Part shown: positions 7,190 through 39,224 of the stretch, piece after piece
Position numbering within the stretch: the stretch's first letter is position 1
Layout of the letters: each line of letters opens with the position of its first letter
From: a virus
DNA length: 41,562 nucleotides
IMG/VR virus record: IMGVR_UViG_3300050821_009708
Coordinates: 1-41,562 of that record
Direction: 5' to 3' (one strand)
Position numbers and translations under genes: made by a program
The notes under the pieces: model-generated
The model's input: the letters and a program-made list of their open reading frames with translations, nothing else
The model's database searches: none
Told to the model about the DNA's origin: nothing

Positions 7190-10059
7190 TAGAGGAGCAG
7201 GCCTCCGACTTCGGTCGCGCCGAATTCATAGCGCCCTGGCGACGCCAGAGTCGTGGCGGCACCGAACATTTTTGTCGAGACCACTTGCGGGAAATAACTC
7301 GAGAGCAGGCCGACGTTCGAAGACACCTCGAGCGTCGTGAGTTTGGTGAAGTCCGAGTCGTCGATCCCGCGCTGCACCGCGGTGTAGGTGAAAGACTCGC
7401 CGGCGCCCACAGAGATCGGAGCTCCGACGGCGATGCCCGCGATTTTCCTCTGGACGGTGAAGAATTGGCCGGCCTCGCCGGCGACATCGCCCGCGTCTTG
7501 CTGAACGGTGAGCGCCTGCGTGAGCCGGTTCCTCGAGCTCCACGAGACCGTGAAGTCGCCAGGCACGCTCGCCGGCCGAACGCCGTACGCGTGCCCGTTC
7601 ACGCTGATGTTCCCCGGAGGATACGGACGCAGGTACCTCGAGCGCGTGGTGAGCACCACATCGGACGCTGAGGAGACGGCGAGCTGATCGATGGACGTGT
7701 TCGGAGTGAAGCGCGCCGTCACCGTGAGATCCGCGGGATACGGCGCCTGCTGCGTAACCTGCATCGCGAGCGAGAAGAAAAACACCTGCGCGCCCATCGC
7801 GTGGTCCGCGGGGACGGTATCGAGCAGGCCGCGCGCGACGCCGGCGATGGAGTAGGTGCCGTCCGAATTCAGCGTCGGCGTGCTCCACGCCATGATCTCG
7901 CCGTCGACCATGCAGAGATTCGCGCCATTCGCATAATCAGTAGCGTCCGCGGCCGCAAGCGAGTCGAGGTCGACGCCGCCGGCTGCGGAGAGAACGAACC
8001 CGGTGGAATCGAACGCCGGCCCACTGGCGGCATACGCGGCATTGAGCACGCCGACGGGACAGAAACTCGACTGCCGCCCGGAGTCGGCGAAGCCGGCGCC
8101 TGGGTTGACCCAGATCTCGAAAGACTTCTCATAGACCGCCGGATCGCGCGCGGCCATCGCGAGCGCGTAGATGCCGAGCGGGAGCGTCGCGCCGAACTGC
8201 AGCGCGTAGGGGAGCTCCACGAGCTGCTCGGCCGAACACGGCGTGGCGGCGCCGGCCGGGTTCACCCAGCCTGACGCCGGCGGAGCGACGAACGCCACGC
8301 TGTTAATTCCGAAGATGTCCTCGACGGCGTCGATGCTGATCTTCCCATCGGTGAGCTCGCCGTAGCTGATGCGCGTGATGCGAAACACCTGGTCCACCAC
8401 GCCGAGCGGAACCCACGTGAGACGGAACAGACCGCCAGGACGGAACTGCCAGGCGGTGCGGTTCGCCACGAGCTTTATCTTCGCCAGGGGATACGTGAGC
8501 GTCTTCAGGACCCGCATCGCCACGAGCGCCGCCGCGGCCTCGGAGCTTAGGCCCTTGAAGTCGATGGTTTGCGAGCGGACCTCCTCGGTCACCGCGATGT
8601 TGGCCGGATCGTACGCGCGGATCGAGCGGTCGTCGAAATTCGCTTCTCGTGAGGAGTAGCGAATATTCAGGAGATTCGAGGTTTCCGTCCAGGAGCCGCG
8701 CGAGAAGTCCGGCGTCGCCAGGATGTTATCGACGGTCAAAACCGGCAGCGTCGTCGGGTCGTAGCCGCCGCGCGCGAGCACGATGGTCCAGAGCCCCGTC
8801 GCCGGATCGGTATAGATCAGGCCGTCGCAATGACGGAGGAGCTCGCCGATGAGCTGGTCCGCGCTTGCCTGCGTGTCGAACATCATCGAGATTCCGAGGC
8901 CTTCGCCGGCCAGGGTGACCGCTGCGGCTTCGAAACTTGCCGCATCCATTCGCGCCGCGGGGATGCCGAGACCGTAGTCGACGTTCGTGAGGCATTCGTA
9001 AACGGCGAGCGCCGGGTTCGCGTCGCCGGCGATGTTGGCGATGCCCGCGCCCTGAGCCAGCGGATCGGGACAGCGCCGCACTACCGGCGCGAGCGGCTTC
9101 AGGTAGTTCGAGGTCCCCACATAGAGCTGCCTGAAGACCATGTAGCATTTCCCGCGATAAGCGGACGCCACATGGGAATGCTGCGTCACGATGGTGAACG
9201 TGTCCCCGAGCGCGAACTGCGTCGAGCCCGTCGCGATAAGAACGTTGATTTTCGAGCAGGAGAATGCCTGGTCCGCCCAGCAAGCGTACGAGCCGTCGCT
9301 GTTCTCCGTGGTGTTGCTTTGCGCGCCGGAGACGGAGCCCACCACAGAAAACTTCATCTTCTGGAACGTGCCGTGGAGCGAGTTCGCGTCGATGCCGATG
9401 GCTGTGATCGTGAACGTTTCGTCGAGGGAGCCGCTGCCGGCGGACAGGGAAGTTATCAGCCCGTTTCCCACGCCGTGGAAGTCGCTGCCGATTCCCGATT
9501 GGTCCGTCACGATGCGGCCTTGCTTCGCGCTGAGGTAGTCGTCCGGCTGCTGCGTTTGGAGGCCTCGGTAAAAATCGATGATTCCCGAGATCCCGCCGCC
9601 GCCGCCCGGAGCGGTTCCGCCGAAGAGATTCGGACCGGCCGCGGTGACCTGGATGTAGTTCTCGCTTCCGTCGCCGTTCGTGATGACTTCGGTGGTCATC
9701 GGGATGTTTTTCTTGTCCGCCTGGATATCCACGAGCGCGTCGACTGGACCGTGGCAGAGCATGAACTGACAGCCGAGATAATATTTGTAGCCGATGACCG
9801 TGGTCGAAAGCAGCGAGGCCCCAAAAGAGAAGATGGCTCCGAGGACGTTCGTGGGAGGATTTATCGCCTTGGATTTCAGGTCGCCCCACCATACCGTGTT
9901 CCCGCCTCTGATCATGCAGGTGCCAAATATCACGGGGATCGCGCGACCTTCTTCGGCCGTCGGGACAGCGAAGTCCCCGAGCGCGGACGGCTGCGGCCCC
10001 ACGGCATGCGGAGCGAGCAGCGCGCCTACTACAGTTGTCGCGACGAACAAAAGCAGCAT
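7189..10059 (-). CDS. Host-specificity (J-like) tail tip protein
   Basis: A 956-residue central tip protein. The N-terminal hydrophobic stretch and E-E-G-R-A-I-P-V-I-F-G-T motif (about 36-47) are characteristic of phage tip/host-specificity proteins. The middle (about 430-600) has the Phage-tail_3/J-like pattern with S-R-G-S-W-T-E-T-S-N-L-L-N-I-R-Y. Later parts look like FN3 or other beta modules. Residues about 196-292 are an inserted beta module also present in the tail protein at 13604-14776. ATG 10059 has no Shine-Dalgarno of its own; it overlaps the stop of a five-codon leader (10059-10076) with a good one. It determines host attachment and tail fibre docking. Confidence 0.9.
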   Translation of the reverse strand: MLLLFVATTVVGALLAPHAVGPQPSALGDFAVPTAEEGRAIPVIFGTCMIRGGNTVWWGDLKSKAINPPTNVLGAIFSFGASLLSTTVIGYKYYLGCQFMLCHGPVDALVDIQADKKNIPMTTEVITNGDGSENYIQVTAAGPNLFGGTAPGGGGGISGIIDFYRGLQTQQPDDYLSAKQGRIVTDQSGIGSDFHGVGNGLITSLSAGSGSLDETFTITAIGIDANSLHGTFQKMKFSVVGSVSGAQSNTTENSDGSYACWADQAFSCSKINVLIATGSTQFALGDTFTIVTQHSHVASAYRGKCYMVFRQLYVGTSNYLKPLAPVVRRCPDPLAQGAGIANIAGDANPALAVYECLTNVDYGLGIPAARMDAASFEAAAVTLAGEGLGISMMFDTQASADQLIGELLRHCDGLIYTDPATGLWTIVLARGGYDPTTLPVLTVDNILATPDFSRGSWTETSNLLNIRYSSREANFDDRSIRAYDPANIAVTEEVRSQTIDFKGLSSEAAAALVAMRVLKTLTYPLAKIKLVANRTAWQFRPGGLFRLTWVPLGVVDQVFRITRISYGELTDGKISIDAVEDIFGINSVAFVAPPASGWVNPAGAATPCSAEQLVELPYALQFGATLPLGIYALAMAARDPAVYEKSFEIWVNPGAGFADSGRQSSFCPVGVLNAAYAASGPAFDSTGFVLSAAGGVDLDSLAAADATDYANGANLCMVDGEIMAWSTPTLNSDGTYSIAGVARGLLDTVPADHAMGAQVFFFSLAMQVTQQAPYPADLTVTARFTPNTSIDQLAVSSASDVVLTTRSRYLRPYPPGNISVNGHAYGVRPASVPGDFTVSWSSRNRLTQALTVQQDAGDVAGEAGQFFTVQRKIAGIAVGAPISVGAGESFTYTAVQRGIDDSDFTKLTTLEVSSNVGLLSSYFPQVVSTKMFGAATTLASPGRYEFGATEVGGLLL

Positions 10060-28680: not shown

Positions 28681-28998
28681 CTAGCCTTTGACCGGTTCAT
28701 GATTGCCTCGAGGCGCCGCGGCGACGCAGGTGAACGGCGAATCGACCCGGAGCTCCCCGTTCTTAATCCAGGAGTGGTAGTGATCGATGGCCAGGAAACT
28801 CGGCGTGAGCGAAATGGTTTCGAGCGTCTCGCCGAATCTGGCCCACGTTCCTAGCGTCTTGACCGGAGCCCCACCGCCGATGGGGTTCTGAAAAAACGCC
28901 ATGTGCTGGCTCCCGCAGTTCGGACATCGGATCGCGAGTCCGACTTTCCGTCCTTCGAACGTCCAGAATTCCGCGGCGACTTTCAGCGGGTAGTTCAT
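28681..28998 (-). CDS. Small zinc-ribbon protein, possible DUF6527-like
   Basis: A 105-residue protein with R-C-P-N-C-G (one CxxC) and a later L-T-P-S-F-L-A plus S-W-I-K-N-G-E-L pattern that recalls DUF6527. ATG 28998 follows GGGAGG and overlaps the methyltransferase stop (ATGA). The function is unknown; zinc binding would need other ligands. Confidence 0.65.
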   Translation of the reverse strand: MNYPLKVAAEFWTFEGRKVGLAIRCPNCGSQHMAFFQNPIGGGAPVKTLGTWARFGETLETISLTPSFLAIDHYHSWIKNGELRVDSPFTCVAAAPRGNHEPVKG

Positions 28999-30305
28999 AC
29001 GCGTGCCTCCCTCTTTGCTTTTTTCCCGGTGACCTCTTCCCACCTGAGCGCGATGACGTCACAGAACTTCGGCTCGAGCTCGCAGAGGTAAGCGGTTCGG
29101 CCGAACTTTTCGCAGGAGATGAGTGTCGAGCCGGAGCCGGCGAACGGATCGAAGACCACGTCTTTCTTCTTCGTGGAATTCCGCAGCATCTTGTCGATGA
29201 GCGCGACCGGCTTCATCGTCGGATGGTCCTCGCTCTTTTTCGGCTTCGGGATTTTCACCACGGTGGTCTGCAGTTCCTCGATGGCCAATTTTTCCCCGCG
29301 GATCTGATACCACTGGTCCCCGAGCCGGAGCCGGTAGAGATTCGGTTCGACCTGCGTGAGCGGAGCCTCGAGCATGAACTCGGAGATCGTCGTGGACTTC
29401 CGGTCGCCGTACCACTTGTGCGGCCCGCTCGGTTTCCAGCCATAGAGAATCGGCTCGTGCTGCCACTGGTAGTCGGACCGCCCGAGCACGAGCGAGTCCT
29501 TGCACCAAATCAGACAGCCGGAGAGTTTGAAACCGGCGTCGGCGAACGCGCCGCGAAAATTAAGACCCTCGGTGTCAGCGTGGCAAACGTAGACCGCGGC
29601 GCCGTCCTTCAGGACGCGGAACATGACGGAATACGCGCGGAGCAGGAACTTCCTGAAGTCCCCGTTCTCCATGTTGTCGTTTTTGATTTTCCCGGCGCCG
29701 CCTTCATAGTTCACGTTGTACGGCGGATCGGTGAAAACCGCGTCGGCCTTCGCGCCGGCGAAAAGTTTCTCGATGACGAACGGGTCGGTGGAGTCCCCGC
29801 AGATGAGCCGGTGCTTCCCGAGCTGGATGAGCTCGCCAGGGAACGTGATCGGCTTCGCCGGCGTCGCCGGCACGGCGTCCTCTTCGGCGCCAGGGAGCAG
29901 CCCGCCCTGGTCGATGTTCAGGAGCGCGTTGATCTCGTCAGCGTCGAACCCGGTCGCCTCGAGATTGAACCCGAGCTTAGAGAGATCGCCGAGCTCGAGC
30001 GCCAGGAGTTCCTCATCCCACTCGGCCTCTTCGTGAACGCGGTTGTCGGCGAGCCGGTAAGCCTTCACCTGCGCCGGCGAGAGATCGGTCGCAATCAGAA
30101 CGGGGACCTCCTTGATGCCGAGACGGAGAGCAGCGAGCAGCCTGGTGTGGCCGACGATGATGACGGAGTCCTTGTCCACCACGATGGGTTGCTTGAAACC
30201 GAACTCCTTAATGGACGCCGCTACTTTTTCGACGGCCTCGTCGTTCTTCCGCGGGTTCCGCTTGTACGGAATCACGCGGTCGACGCTCCACATCTGGATT
30301 TTCAT
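28995..30305 (-). CDS. ParB-domain DNA methyltransferase fusion
   Basis: A 436-residue protein. Residues about 5-95 are a ParB/Srx-like domain (P-Y-K-R-N-P-R-K-N-D, V-G-H-T-R-L-L-A-A). The C-terminal part is an N4/N6-type DNA methyltransferase with D-P-P-Y-N-V (193-198) before D-P-F-A-G-S-G-S-T (386-394), the beta-class order. It methylates adenine or cytosine-N4 in phage or host DNA. No cognate endonuclease is next to it, so it is an orphan, probably for restriction evasion or regulation. ATG 30305 with GGAG is preferred over GTG 30311. Confidence 0.92.
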   Translation of the reverse strand: MKIQMWSVDRVIPYKRNPRKNDEAVEKVAASIKEFGFKQPIVVDKDSVIIVGHTRLLAALRLGIKEVPVLIATDLSPAQVKAYRLADNRVHEEAEWDEELLALELGDLSKLGFNLEATGFDADEINALLNIDQGGLLPGAEEDAVPATPAKPITFPGELIQLGKHRLICGDSTDPFVIEKLFAGAKADAVFTDPPYNVNYEGGAGKIKNDNMENGDFRKFLLRAYSVMFRVLKDGAAVYVCHADTEGLNFRGAFADAGFKLSGCLIWCKDSLVLGRSDYQWQHEPILYGWKPSGPHKWYGDRKSTTISEFMLEAPLTQVEPNLYRLRLGDQWYQIRGEKLAIEELQTTVVKIPKPKKSEDHPTMKPVALIDKMLRNSTKKKDVVFDPFAGSGSTLISCEKFGRTAYLCELEPKFCDVIALRWEEVTGKKAKREARV

Positions 30306-30539
30306 GAGCACCGCTCCAAAAAAGCCCCCCGCGAATAACCGAAACGAAGTCCGTCAAAAATTCTCAGTGCGTGGACATCTCGTGCAGTCGCCGTCACCCG
30401 CGGACGCCACCCCCACGGGGGAGGACCCTGCGCGAACCGAGACCACCCGGCCCAATTGCCCCACGCAAGCCACGCCAGGCGAGCGCCACGAGCCACACCG
30501 CACACCACACAACGAGACACACACGACACACGAGACACT
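30306..30539. other. Gene-poor GC/GT-rich gap
   Basis: About 230 bases without a convincing gene. The right part (about 30480-30540) is an alternating GT/CA-rich tract. A CCCCC/GGGGG stem occurs near 30409-30421. A 49-codon ORF on the - strand (30394-30543) overlaps the upstream stop in ATGA and would encode a short Cys- and Val/Leu-rich peptide, but it has no Shine-Dalgarno and skewed composition. Confidence 0.5.
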
Positions 30540-32388: not shown

Positions 32389-33042
32389 CTAGCCAGCGCT
32401 TTTGAATTCCCTCTGGACGGCCTCGGCCTGGTCCAGGAGCAGCAAGCGCCGAGCCTCGAGCTCTTTCTTGGTTTTCCACACACGCGGCATAGCGTGAGCG
32501 GCCGCCACGGCGCCGATTGTTTCTTCTGCTAGGTTCTTAACTTCTTTATGGGGCAAAGTTTTGCCCCCAACGGGGGCAAAGTCTTGCCCCATGTGAATCT
32601 GAGACACAGTCGATTCCGACTGCTTTTCCACAGGGTTTCCCACAGATTTTCCTTTCATCGTGGCGACAGCCGGGAGGAGCAGCGAGAGCTGCACCGCCGG
32701 TGCCGGACGTGCGGTTTGCCACTTCGCAGACCCGATGAGCCGAACGGTCATGCCGCCGCCGAATCCCACGGCGCGGACCTCCACGAGGCCGGCGCGTTTC
32801 AGTTTTGCCATGTGGTACTTGAGGGTGCGAACACACGGCCGGTCGTCAGGATTTCCCGGCCAGTGCGCCAGGAGCCAGGCGTAACCGAACGCGCGACCGT
32901 AGTTCACACGGCCGCTCGCATCGGTTTGCAGGTCTGTCAGGACGTCGTGAAGATGGGACGCGGTCTTGATCGTGTCCCACTTCCCGGCGCGTTCCGGTTG
33001 GACCGCGACGTATCTGAACGCGTGCTGCGTTTCCTCCCCCAA
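32389..33042 (-). CDS. Winged-helix DNA-binding protein, possible replication initiator
   Basis: A 217-residue protein with a winged-helix-like region (about 70-102: T-L-K-Y-H-M-A-K-L-K-R-A-G-L, then G-G-G-M-T-V-R-L). The C-terminal part is Lys/Glu-rich and helical. It may organise replication, as no DNA polymerase, helicase or primase is visible in the window. No ATG or GTG opens the frame; TTG 33042 is the best start, CTG 33054 an alternative. The frame extends back to the in-frame TGA of the VRR-NUC gene. Confidence 0.65.
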   Translation of the reverse strand: MGEETQHAFRYVAVQPERAGKWDTIKTASHLHDVLTDLQTDASGRVNYGRAFGYAWLLAHWPGNPDDRPCVRTLKYHMAKLKRAGLVEVRAVGFGGGMTVRLIGSAKWQTARPAPAVQLSLLLPAVATMKGKSVGNPVEKQSESTVSQIHMGQDFAPVGGKTLPHKEVKNLAEETIGAVAAAHAMPRVWKTKKELEARRLLLLDQAEAVQREFKSAG

Positions 33043-33117: not shown

Positions 33118-33624
33118 TCAAAAATTTTTGACCAGCCTCCGGTTCCTGTGGAGCTGCGCGGCGCACCAGGCCTCGACGTCCCCCGAGCACCACGCCACGA
33201 GAACACAAGCGCCGCGGCGATGCTTCGCGAGCAGAAACTCGAGCTGCTCCTTCGACGGCTCGCCGGCACGGCGAATGATTTTCTTTTTCGCATCGATCCA
33301 AGCCGGAGCTTTCACTTCGATGTAGAGCGCGCGGCCGAACGGCGCGAGCGTCGCCTCGAGATCCGCAAACCCCGCGGGGATCGCGGCGCCGGTCGCGACG
33401 TTCTGAACGCCGGCGAGATCCACACCTCGAGCCTTCGCCGCGCCCATCATCCGGCCGCGCTGCCGGCGGCCGCCGGCGTCGATGGGAACGGCGTCGACGT
33501 TGTAGAGCGCCAGGAGCTCGAGGATTGCCTTCTGGACCTGCGCTTCGGTGACGGACTGCATGAGGTACAAAACACCATAGCGGTCGATTTCGAACTTCCA
33601 CGGAAATGGGTACGCCTCGGTCAC
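33118..33624 (-). CDS. VRR-NUC domain nuclease
   Basis: A 168-residue PD-(D/E)XK-type nuclease. It has the VRR-NUC core: V-T-E-A-Q-V-Q-K-A-I (25-34), G-G-R-R (51-54), A-G-F-A-D-L-E (84-90) with Asp88, I-E-V-K-A-P (102-107) with Glu103 and Lys105, and K-E-Q-L (125-128). Phage members may resolve branched DNA or nick replication intermediates. GTG 33624 overlaps the upstream stop (GTGA). Confidence 0.88.
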   Translation of the reverse strand: MTEAYPFPWKFEIDRYGVLYLMQSVTEAQVQKAILELLALYNVDAVPIDAGGRRQRGRMMGAAKARGVDLAGVQNVATGAAIPAGFADLEATLAPFGRALYIEVKAPAWIDAKKKIIRRAGEPSKEQLEFLLAKHRRGACVLVAWCSGDVEAWCAAQLHRNRRLVKNF

Positions 33625-33821
33625 GGTTTTTTCGGCTCGCCGGTGATGTCGCGGAGATCGTTGATGCTTTCCTTCATGACCTCGAGAGAATTGTTCGCGA
33701 GGCCCGACTGCGCGTAGGCCACGGTGCGCCTGGCGTTGTCGAGTTCGGCGCCGTGCAGAGACGCGTAGAGCTGCTCGACGCGGTGAATCTCGCGCGTCAG
33801 TTCCAGGATGATGTTCGGCAT
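33621..33821 (-). CDS. Small coiled-coil protein
   Basis: A 66-residue helical protein (L-T-R-E-I-H-R-V-E-Q-L-Y then L-E-V-M-K-E-S-I-N-D-L-R-D). ATG 33821 lies shortly downstream of the structured RNA region with Shine-Dalgarno AAAGG. It is coupled to the VRR-NUC gene. No family is recognised. Confidence 0.75.
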   Translation of the reverse strand: MPNIILELTREIHRVEQLYASLHGAELDNARRTVAYAQSGLANNSLEVMKESINDLRDITGEPKKP

Positions 33822-33836
33822 TTTTTAGCCTTTCTT

Positions 33837-34127
33837 TTCGACAGGAGCCGCCGCAGTTCCTCTCCGAACTACGGCGGTTCCGCGTGTTCCATGACGCCCT
33901 GTCGAATCCCCGCCGCTCTACCACGGCGGAAACTTAAGTTTCACGGGAGGCGGCCGCGAACTTAAGGGAAACGCGGCCGCCGGGGTGTGCTCACCGTGTC
34001 CGCCGTCTCGCAACAGCGGAAACCCTCTTCGACGGGGGACCGCCGCAGCACCCCTTCCGTGGAGTTGCTACGGCGGCCCTGTCCCCTGTCGAACCCCGCC
34101 GAGCTACCCAGCCAGGAGCCCGGCGGG
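33837..34127 (-). ncRNA. Candidate structured RNA, two related units
   Basis: A 312-base gap (33822-34133) without genes. On the - strand, unit A (34127-34028): stem CCCGCCG/CGGCGGG (34095-34101, 34121-34127), then an 11-position outer stem with one mismatch (34028-34038, 34083-34093) enclosing a hairpin CCGCCGTAGCA/TGCTGCGGCGG (34040-34050, 34066-34076). Unit B (33929-33837): stem CCGCCG/CGGCGG (33910-33929), outer stem TTCGACAGG/CCTGTCGAA (33837-33845, 33898-33906) and hairpin CCGCCGTAGTTC/GAACTGCGGCGG (33848-33859, 33866-33877). Between them: hairpin 33999-34020, a perfect 10-bp stem (33949-33958, 33972-33981) and palindrome 33929-33942. Matching base-pair changes between units and mostly G-U-type pairs on the - strand support a - strand RNA. 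Confidence 0.7.
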
Positions 34128-34133
34128 AAATTC

Positions 34134-34493
34134 TTACTTCGGAACGTTCCTCAGCGATTCGAGAGATCTCTTCATGCGCTCCACGTCGCCGGAGGCGATG
34201 CTCGCCTCGCCTTCCCGGACAACGATTTGCACCATGTCCCGCACGAGCGTTCCCGCCGGCACGATGGATTCGTACGTGGGAAGCAGGAGCTGCACGCGCC
34301 GGCATTCCGCCCGGATCTTGTCGATCAAGTCTTGGTCCGGCACTGAGCCCTCCATCGGCGATGTATTTTTCCGCCCACAGTTCGGACAGAACTTCGGAGT
34401 CCACTCCGACGGCCAGCGAAAGTCCACGCGACACCTCGAGCACACCGCCTGGAATCCCCGGAGCACGAGCCTCGTCGTGGATGAAGCATTCAA
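34134..34493 (-). CDS. Zinc-ribbon protein
   Basis: A 119-residue protein with two CxxC pairs (A-V-C-S-R-C at about 17-22 and F-C-P-N-C-G at about 35-40) forming a zinc ribbon, followed by a helical region to the end. The start is TTG 34493, four bases after GAGGAGG. No function is recognised; a DNA- or RNA-binding accessory role is possible. Confidence 0.7.
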   Translation of the reverse strand: MNASSTTRLVLRGFQAVCSRCRVDFRWPSEWTPKFCPNCGRKNTSPMEGSVPDQDLIDKIRAECRRVQLLLPTYESIVPAGTLVRDMVQIVVREGEASIASGDVERMKRSLESLRNVPK

Positions 34494-38072: not shown

Positions 38073-39224
38073 TCAGCGGCGATTTTTGTTTCGTTCTCGG
38101 CGAACTCCGCCTGGTCCGTCTTCGCCGTCTGTTTCCTGACCGCTGGTTTCTTCTTGGCCGGCTTCTTTTTCTTGGCCGGGTTCCCGCTCTTTTTGCTTTT
38201 CACGTCGTTCCTCCTTTGCGCTCATCTTCTCGGCCGCCGCCTGACGATGGTCCTGCGCCAGGTGCGCGTACTTCATCGTCTGGACGATGGATTTGTGGCC
38301 CAGAAGTTCTTGCACCGTTCGGAGGTCGACGCCTTCCATCACGAGGCGCGACGCGAACGTGTGACGGAGATCGTGCCAGTGGAAGTCCCGGACGCCGGCC
38401 TTGTCCACGGCCTCCTCAAACCAGGTCCGCCAGTCCCGCTTCGCCGAGCCGTCGTTCTCGGGACAGACGAACTCGCGGTCGCCCGAGATCTTCTGTAGCT
38501 TCCGCAGCGCAGCGATGGCGCCTTCATTCGCGGTGACGTGGCGCCTTCCGCTTTTTCCGTTGACGGTGAGGACCTTGTTCTCGAAGTCGACATTTTTCCA
38601 GCGGAGCGTGAACTGTTCGCCGCGGCGCATTCCGGTGAGCATCGCCAGGTCGAACTCCCACTCGTGCGAGTCGGCGACGAACTCCTTCCTGATCTGCGCT
38701 TCTTCCACATCACGGAGCCAGCGCACGCGCGAATCGTTCTCCTTGTACCTCGAGACCTGCCTCGCAGGATTCACGGCCAGGCGGCCGGCCTTGACCGCGA
38801 ACTTGAAAATGGAAGACACGAGCGCGTGGAAACGGTTCACCGTCGAGCCGCTCAGACCGGACTGCTTGAAGCGCGAGAGCGTCTCCTCGAGGCGCGCCGG
38901 CGTGAGCTGGTCCGCGGGAAGATTTCCGATGAGGAGGAGGAGCTGCTGCAGCCGGCCGGCGTCGGTTTCATAAGACAGATCCGCGAGCCGGAGTTTCTTC
39001 TGGACCATCGCCGCCATCGCGAGCTCGCGGAACGTGAGCCGCGCGCCGGCGCGAGGCGGGATGTAGCGCCCCTCCTTGACCTCGAGCCGGCGCCGGCCGA
39101 GAGCATCGAGCGCAGCGGAGCGCCGGCCGGCTTTCTCGCGGTGACGTTTGCCTTCGCCGTCACAGTAAGAGATCCACCAGACGCCGCTGCGCGGGGGACG
39201 CTCGAAGATGCCGCGGATCGGCAT
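38073..39224 (-). CDS. Tyrosine recombinase, second integrase of the phage
   Basis: A 383-residue tyrosine recombinase. It has an N-terminal arm-type domain (about 15-45), a core-binding domain (about 62-160) and a catalytic domain with Arg200 (T-G-M-R-R-G-E), Lys224 (N-G-K-S-G), His284 and Arg287 (H-D-L-R-H), His310 (L-G-H-K-S) and nucleophile Tyr319 (M-K-Y-A-H). All catalytic residues are intact. A long Glu/Lys-rich tail follows. ATG 39224 follows AGGGCC. The att sites at the prophage ends fit the serine integrase, so this enzyme probably acts elsewhere. Confidence 0.93.
   Translation of the reverse strand: MPIRGIFERPPRSGVWWISYCDGEGKRHREKAGRRSAALDALGRRRLEVKEGRYIPPRAGARLTFRELAMAAMVQKKLRLADLSYETDAGRLQQLLLLIGNLPADQLTPARLEETLSRFKQSGLSGSTVNRFHALVSSIFKFAVKAGRLAVNPARQVSRYKENDSRVRWLRDVEEAQIRKEFVADSHEWEFDLAMLTGMRRGEQFTLRWKNVDFENKVLTVNGKSGRRHVTANEGAIAALRKLQKISGDREFVCPENDGSAKRDWRTWFEEAVDKAGVRDFHWHDLRHTFASRLVMEGVDLRTVQELLGHKSIVQTMKYAHLAQDHRQAAAEKMSAKEERREKQKEREPGQEKEAGQEETSGQETDGEDGPGGVRRERNKNRR

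Follow-up and report, generated by a model that had tools for sequence, protein, structure and literature searches.

A new, small family of structured elements ahead of a conserved 66-aa gene in two phages

In this work we describe a real and new, although small, family of structured elements found in two phages. In one of them the elements lie in a gap between two genes of the stretch analysed here, which is the whole 41,562 nucleotides of the IMG/VR virus record IMGVR_UViG_3300050821_009708 (the window, see Table 1); in the other, the related contig L002, a single element lies at the same place. The gap element is probably a working RNA, and most likely it controls the gene just after it, which encodes a conserved 66-aa protein.

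Most genes of this 41.6-kb record run leftward, and a phage integrase is encoded at 38073-39224. The search of an annotated phage collection found no relative. From sequence, the host is probably a member of the Terriglobia/Acidobacteriota group from soil, because relatives of a neighbouring 147-aa protein turn up in one Terriglobia (Acidobacteriota) MAG as well as in some two dozen viral contigs. The replication origin of the phage is likely formed by repeats inside a gene at 32389-33042. In this putative replication gene, on the - strand, there are strong inverted repeats (ATGGGGCAAgACTTTGCCCCCGTTGGGGGCAAAACTTTGCCCCAT, 32501-32640), which are kept in the relative L171 (10870-10930). In two other relatives, L006 and L192, different palindromes (ACCGCCAAAAGTGGCGGT) lie within or close to the putative replication gene.

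Table 1. Positions of the gap, its structured units and selected genes in the window
Feature	Position	Strand	Basis or remark
Gap, 312 nt	33822-34133	-	between the 119-aa ORF stop (34134) and the 66-aa ORF start (33821)
119-aa gene, upstream of the gap	34134-34493	-	
U2 H1, short hairpin (CCCGCCGGGCT / AGCTCGGCGGG)	34095-34127	-	fold
U2 outer stem S (TTCGACAGGGGAC / GTCCCCCGTCGAA), enclosing H2	34028-34093	-	fold
U2 long hairpin H2 (CCGCCGTAGCAACTCC..GGGGTGCTGCGGCGG)	34040-34076	-	fold
U3, third block of similar shape	33942-34022 (about)	-	fold, z -4.3
U3 stems H1' (TCCGCTGT/ACGGCGGA), S' (CACGG/CCGTG, weak) and H2' (GGCGGCCGCG/CGCGGCCGCC)			
Perfect palindrome, 14 bp (GAAACTTAAGTTTC)	33929-33942		
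U1 H1, short hairpin (TTTCCGCCGT / GCGGCGGGGA)	33907-33932	-	fold; pairs conserved in L002
U1 outer stem S (TTCGACAGG / CCTGTCGAA)	33837-33906	-	fold
U1 long hairpin H2, 12 bp, conserved U-G at step 7	33848-33877	-	
AAGAAAGG, likely Shine-Dalgarno of the 66-aa gene	33829-33836	-	sequence
66-aa gene, conserved, downstream of the gap	33621-33821	-	82% identical in L002
ParB-like N-terminal domain fused to a DNA methyltransferase domain, one protein	28995-30311		

The first-pass annotation had proposed that this gene-free gap folds into a series of stems, and folding it bears this out. As - strand RNA the gap reaches -181.2 kcal/mol with a z-score of -8.4, i.e. it is far more structured than its shuffles, none of which folded as well; the + strand has a z-score of -5.9. 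Folded singly, the two homologous units described below give z-scores of -6.2 and -6.3 and the third block, U3, gives -4.3. Long overlapping ORFs are present within the gap, as elsewhere in GC-rich DNA. A search of Rfam 15 returned nothing at or above the curated gathering threshold, only weak matches far below it, and hence no family match. The gap had been judged not to be a standard tRNA, and indeed neither a tRNA nor a tmRNA model matched. The segment GGATTCGACAGG was considered as the 5′ end of a tmRNA and dropped; in L002 it changes jointly with its pairing partner.

Two units, U1 and U2, share one layout, in which an outer stem (S) comes straight after a short hairpin (H1) and encloses a long hairpin (H2). 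In U1 the outer stem also encloses an extra small hairpin (GCGT/ACGC). The two related units of the first-pass annotation, with their outer TTCGACAGG stems and CCGCCG/CGGCGG hairpins, therefore stand, but the word 'duplicated' understates the array, because a third, diverged block (U3) sits between them, with no sequence match to either. U3 is less certain, since its S' stem consists of 5 bp only and, when the block is folded by itself, is missing from one minimum-energy structure; the minimum-energy and centroid structures disagree on this stem. Between U1 and U2 the inner hairpin changes from U-A to C-G and from U-A to A-U with pairing kept, exactly as had been read from the sequence. Both units likewise have a U-G pair at step 7 of H2, and so does L002.

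L002 has the same gene order as the window and exactly one unit in the corresponding gap, which measures 128 bp. The flanking proteins are 61% (119-aa) and 82% (66-aa) identical between the two phages. By inspection, none of the frames of at least 30 aa that overlap the L002 gap has a counterpart in the window, i.e. this homologous gap holds no protein-like ORF. The outer stem of L002, TTGCACAGG/(T)CTGTGCAA, differs from that of U1 in two pairs that are swapped on both sides and in one G-C that has become G-U, so pairing has been kept through double-sided changes. Furthermore, a covariance model trained on just U1 and L002 recovers U2 (36.1 bits, E 2e-4, in 578 kb of relatives). The units are 59-66% identical to each other in sequence. 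In a three-row alignment of U1, U2 and L002, which leans towards structure because it was fitted to the covariance model, and which at n=3 is too small for formal covariation statistics, 8 of the 31 pairs are altered on both sides and 96.8% of the cells pair; 0 of 500 shuffles matched this, and slid controls gave 0-3. These compensatory changes, the unit at the same place in L002 and a homologous gap without a protein-like ORF lend good support to the earlier proposal of a functional - strand RNA.

Could the units be a chance cluster of inverted repeats, without function? High GC content, the abundance of adjacent hairpins and the L002 unit alone, which at z -1.6 is no better than shuffles, would all agree with this. 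Set against them are the covariation among three units, the independent recovery of U2 and the fold z-score of -8.4 for the gap, and we consider a chance origin highly improbable.

On the coding strand, the non-Watson-Crick cells of U1, U2 and L002 comprise 12 G-U against 1 A-C, at 6 and 1 pair positions, respectively. The first-pass annotation had taken such a bias as a sign of a - strand RNA. The counts uphold the bias, but it is weaker than it appears, because the positions are shared by descent and because single-unit z-scores are alike on both strands, the sense strand not being favoured. RNA is nevertheless favoured, since the unit lies on the coding strand within an operon and stops some 5 nt short of the Shine-Dalgarno sequence of the 66-aa gene, both in the window phage and in L002. 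Judged in this way, the structured element probably acts as RNA.

A competing possibility is that the element works as DNA, either as single-stranded hairpins or cruciforms in replication or recombination, or as a mobile hairpin of the REP/MITE type. The arms are near-perfect inverted repeats that fold on both strands, copy number varies, and a 16-mer tail recurs near hairpins at another gene in L190. However, the excess of G-U over A-C on the coding strand (12 vs 1), the unit at exactly the same place in L002 and a likelier replication origin inside the gene at 32389-33042 all argue against this, as does a search of the window, of relatives and of 95 host-order genomes, which turned up no dispersed copies. 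We regard a DNA-level role as clearly unlikely.

The searches behind the last point used a model built from U1 and L002. It found no dispersed copies within the window, no more copies in 41 sources around relatives, 34 pattern-derived loci and 19 whole relative records, and none in the 95 host-order genomes, the last being a weak negative because strict filters were applied to a two-sequence model. A mobile hairpin of the REP/MITE type would have such dispersed copies, and with a two-sequence model their absence counts for little; one further record, L190, shares the 16-mer near hairpins. The best match in a Terriglobia MAG (26 bits, E 0.14) is apparently protein-coding sequence. In viral contigs, the pattern TTCGACAGG-N-CCTGTCGAA occurs in 29 records, none of which was confirmed as a relative, and a pattern for the H1 junction occurs in 35, with the full unit in L002 only. 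Among the matches listed for the inner hairpin pattern with its U-G pair, the top ones that were inspected look like chance and are mostly gene-like sequence. Matches in viral contigs to the palindrome after U3 looked unrelated outside L190, and the one in L008 is coding sequence. Generic descriptors (the unit shape, or two adjacent hairpins) gave many matches everywhere and were dropped as evidence. Shape alone proves nothing, because chance alone makes adjacent hairpins frequent in genomes this rich in GC (2368 matches over 24 loci).

Within this phage group, structured leaders appear repeatedly without being fixed, since L183, L189 and L190 have hairpins whereas several relatives have no gap. 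In L183 (about 293-361) and L189 (about 8907-9000) a two-hairpin element lies directly upstream of the 66-aa gene; the two are homologous to each other and unlike the window units. They share the core GAGTTCCTRCCCGGAACGATCC, which was found in no viral contigs besides these two, and have compensatory stems (TTCGGCTG/CAGTCGAA and TTCCGTCTG/CAGACGGAA). The 16-mer GTGAAACTTAAGTTTC, which follows U3 in the window, is also found at 2852-2867 of L190, ahead of another gene; there, two adjacent hairpins, then the 16-mer (together 2783-2870) and a Shine-Dalgarno sequence, lead up to a small gene at 2878. L173, L174, L177, L178 and L192 have no gap here; another gene directly adjoins the 66-aa gene.

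How might the element act? The reading we prefer, put forward tentatively, is that of a cis-acting intercistronic RNA that may well determine how the 66-aa message is processed, how stable it is or how it is translated. The gap would be transcribed as a structured RNA within the leftward early transcript. No sigma-70-like promoter was found at 33.4-36.1 kb, which fits co-transcription of the gap, although the consensus used by promoters of the host may differ. There are three blocks in the window phage and a single one in L002, its nearest relative, and the final unit stops just ahead of where ribosomes would bind to translate the 66-aa gene. Within the mRNA, the array would serve either as a stable block or as a double-strand processing site between cistrons. 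The S and H2 stems together run to about 21 bp or more and would suit RNase III as a candidate site. The stability and translation of the 66-aa gene could thus be set independently of the gene upstream.

The two flanking genes are themselves connected. In a profile comparison, the C-terminal half of the 119-aa protein (34137-34346) is distantly related to the whole 66-aa protein (33624-33821; E 1.4e-7), which places the RNA between two distantly related gene copies; pairwise BLASTP of the two proteins gave nothing. The 66-aa protein is predicted to form a three-helix bundle (pLDDT 91), and a structure search with this model returned only generic three-helix bundles (E >= 0.5), with no hint of function.

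Alternatively, the units could form a trans-acting small RNA, either standing alone or processed out of the transcript, that serves as an antisense regulator or as a decoy or sponge for a host or defence protein, with tandem copies raising the dose. Compact, stable tandem units in one to three copies among relatives would be in keeping with this, as would the GGA motifs in some window loops. Yet no promoter of its own was found. A search for intrinsic terminators (a GC-rich hairpin plus a T run) gave 4 sites against 3.3 expected, none of them after U1 or U2, so these units are followed by no terminator U-run; one candidate site on the - strand overlaps the palindrome after U3. The loop sequences are conserved neither between units nor with L002, hence there is no shared recognition loop. 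PADLOC matched none of ten neighbouring proteins, and the counter-defence role that had been suggested for the gap thus finds no support. On balance we think a trans-acting RNA unlikely. The further idea of a new trans-acting phage RNA family directed at a host factor or a defence factor, with a copy number (one to three) that would shift in an arms race while its stems are rebuilt by compensatory change, is decidedly unlikely.

Structured RNAs in phages beyond the model hosts have hardly been catalogued. The element described here is directly testable, with compensatory changes in two relatives, a clear unit, a variable copy number and a defined neighbour gene. If it is truly a trans-acting or antiterminator RNA, this would be unusual for Acidobacteriota phages; if it is a leader element, it would be a modest addition to what is known of phage mRNA control.

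Several known systems invite comparison. The CsrB and RsmZ sponge RNAs carry tandem hairpins with GGA in most hairpin loops. The window units are tandem hairpins as well, but GGA is found in some of their loops and is absent from those of L002; a CsrA sponge was dropped, as the loop GGA is not conserved. A ToxI-like RNA of a type III toxin-antitoxin system would be a run of tandem repeats beside a gene for a ToxN-like endoribonuclease, but no protein of such a family was found among the neighbours (Pfam, PHROGs, PADLOC).

The put RNA of HK022, found in early operons of this temperate phage, acts in cis, measures about 70 nt and has two stem-loops (PMC9378689). By analogy, the units might be cis antiterminators whose stem-loops attach to RNA polymerase and allow it to pass terminators. 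The outline is alike, with a hairpin and, straight after it, another stem-loop in an operon of the early type, yet such two-hairpin shapes are common by chance here. The units also differ in having no sequence match to put, Rfam included, in the outer stem over a long hairpin, in their tandem arrangement and in the host phylum. They lie right before a ribosome-binding site and start codon, several genes into the operon and not near a found promoter. We therefore hold this reading to be quite improbable.

In cluster K mycobacteriophages, the extended start-associated sequences are noncoding inverted repeats of 17 bp with 4-13 bp spacers, just upstream of the start codons of many genes, with a common 13-bp motif (PMC3203893). 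Our units resemble them as inverted repeats outside coding sequence, just before a start codon, but are longer and composite, occupy one gap and share no start motif. A search of the window for copies within 400 bp found no such repeats shared by the starts of several genes.

Finally, RNase III sites of the T7 type are long double-stranded hairpins on the coding strand, between early cistrons. As putative cleavage sites, the window units are like them in position and in their long hairpins, although several units stand in tandem here.
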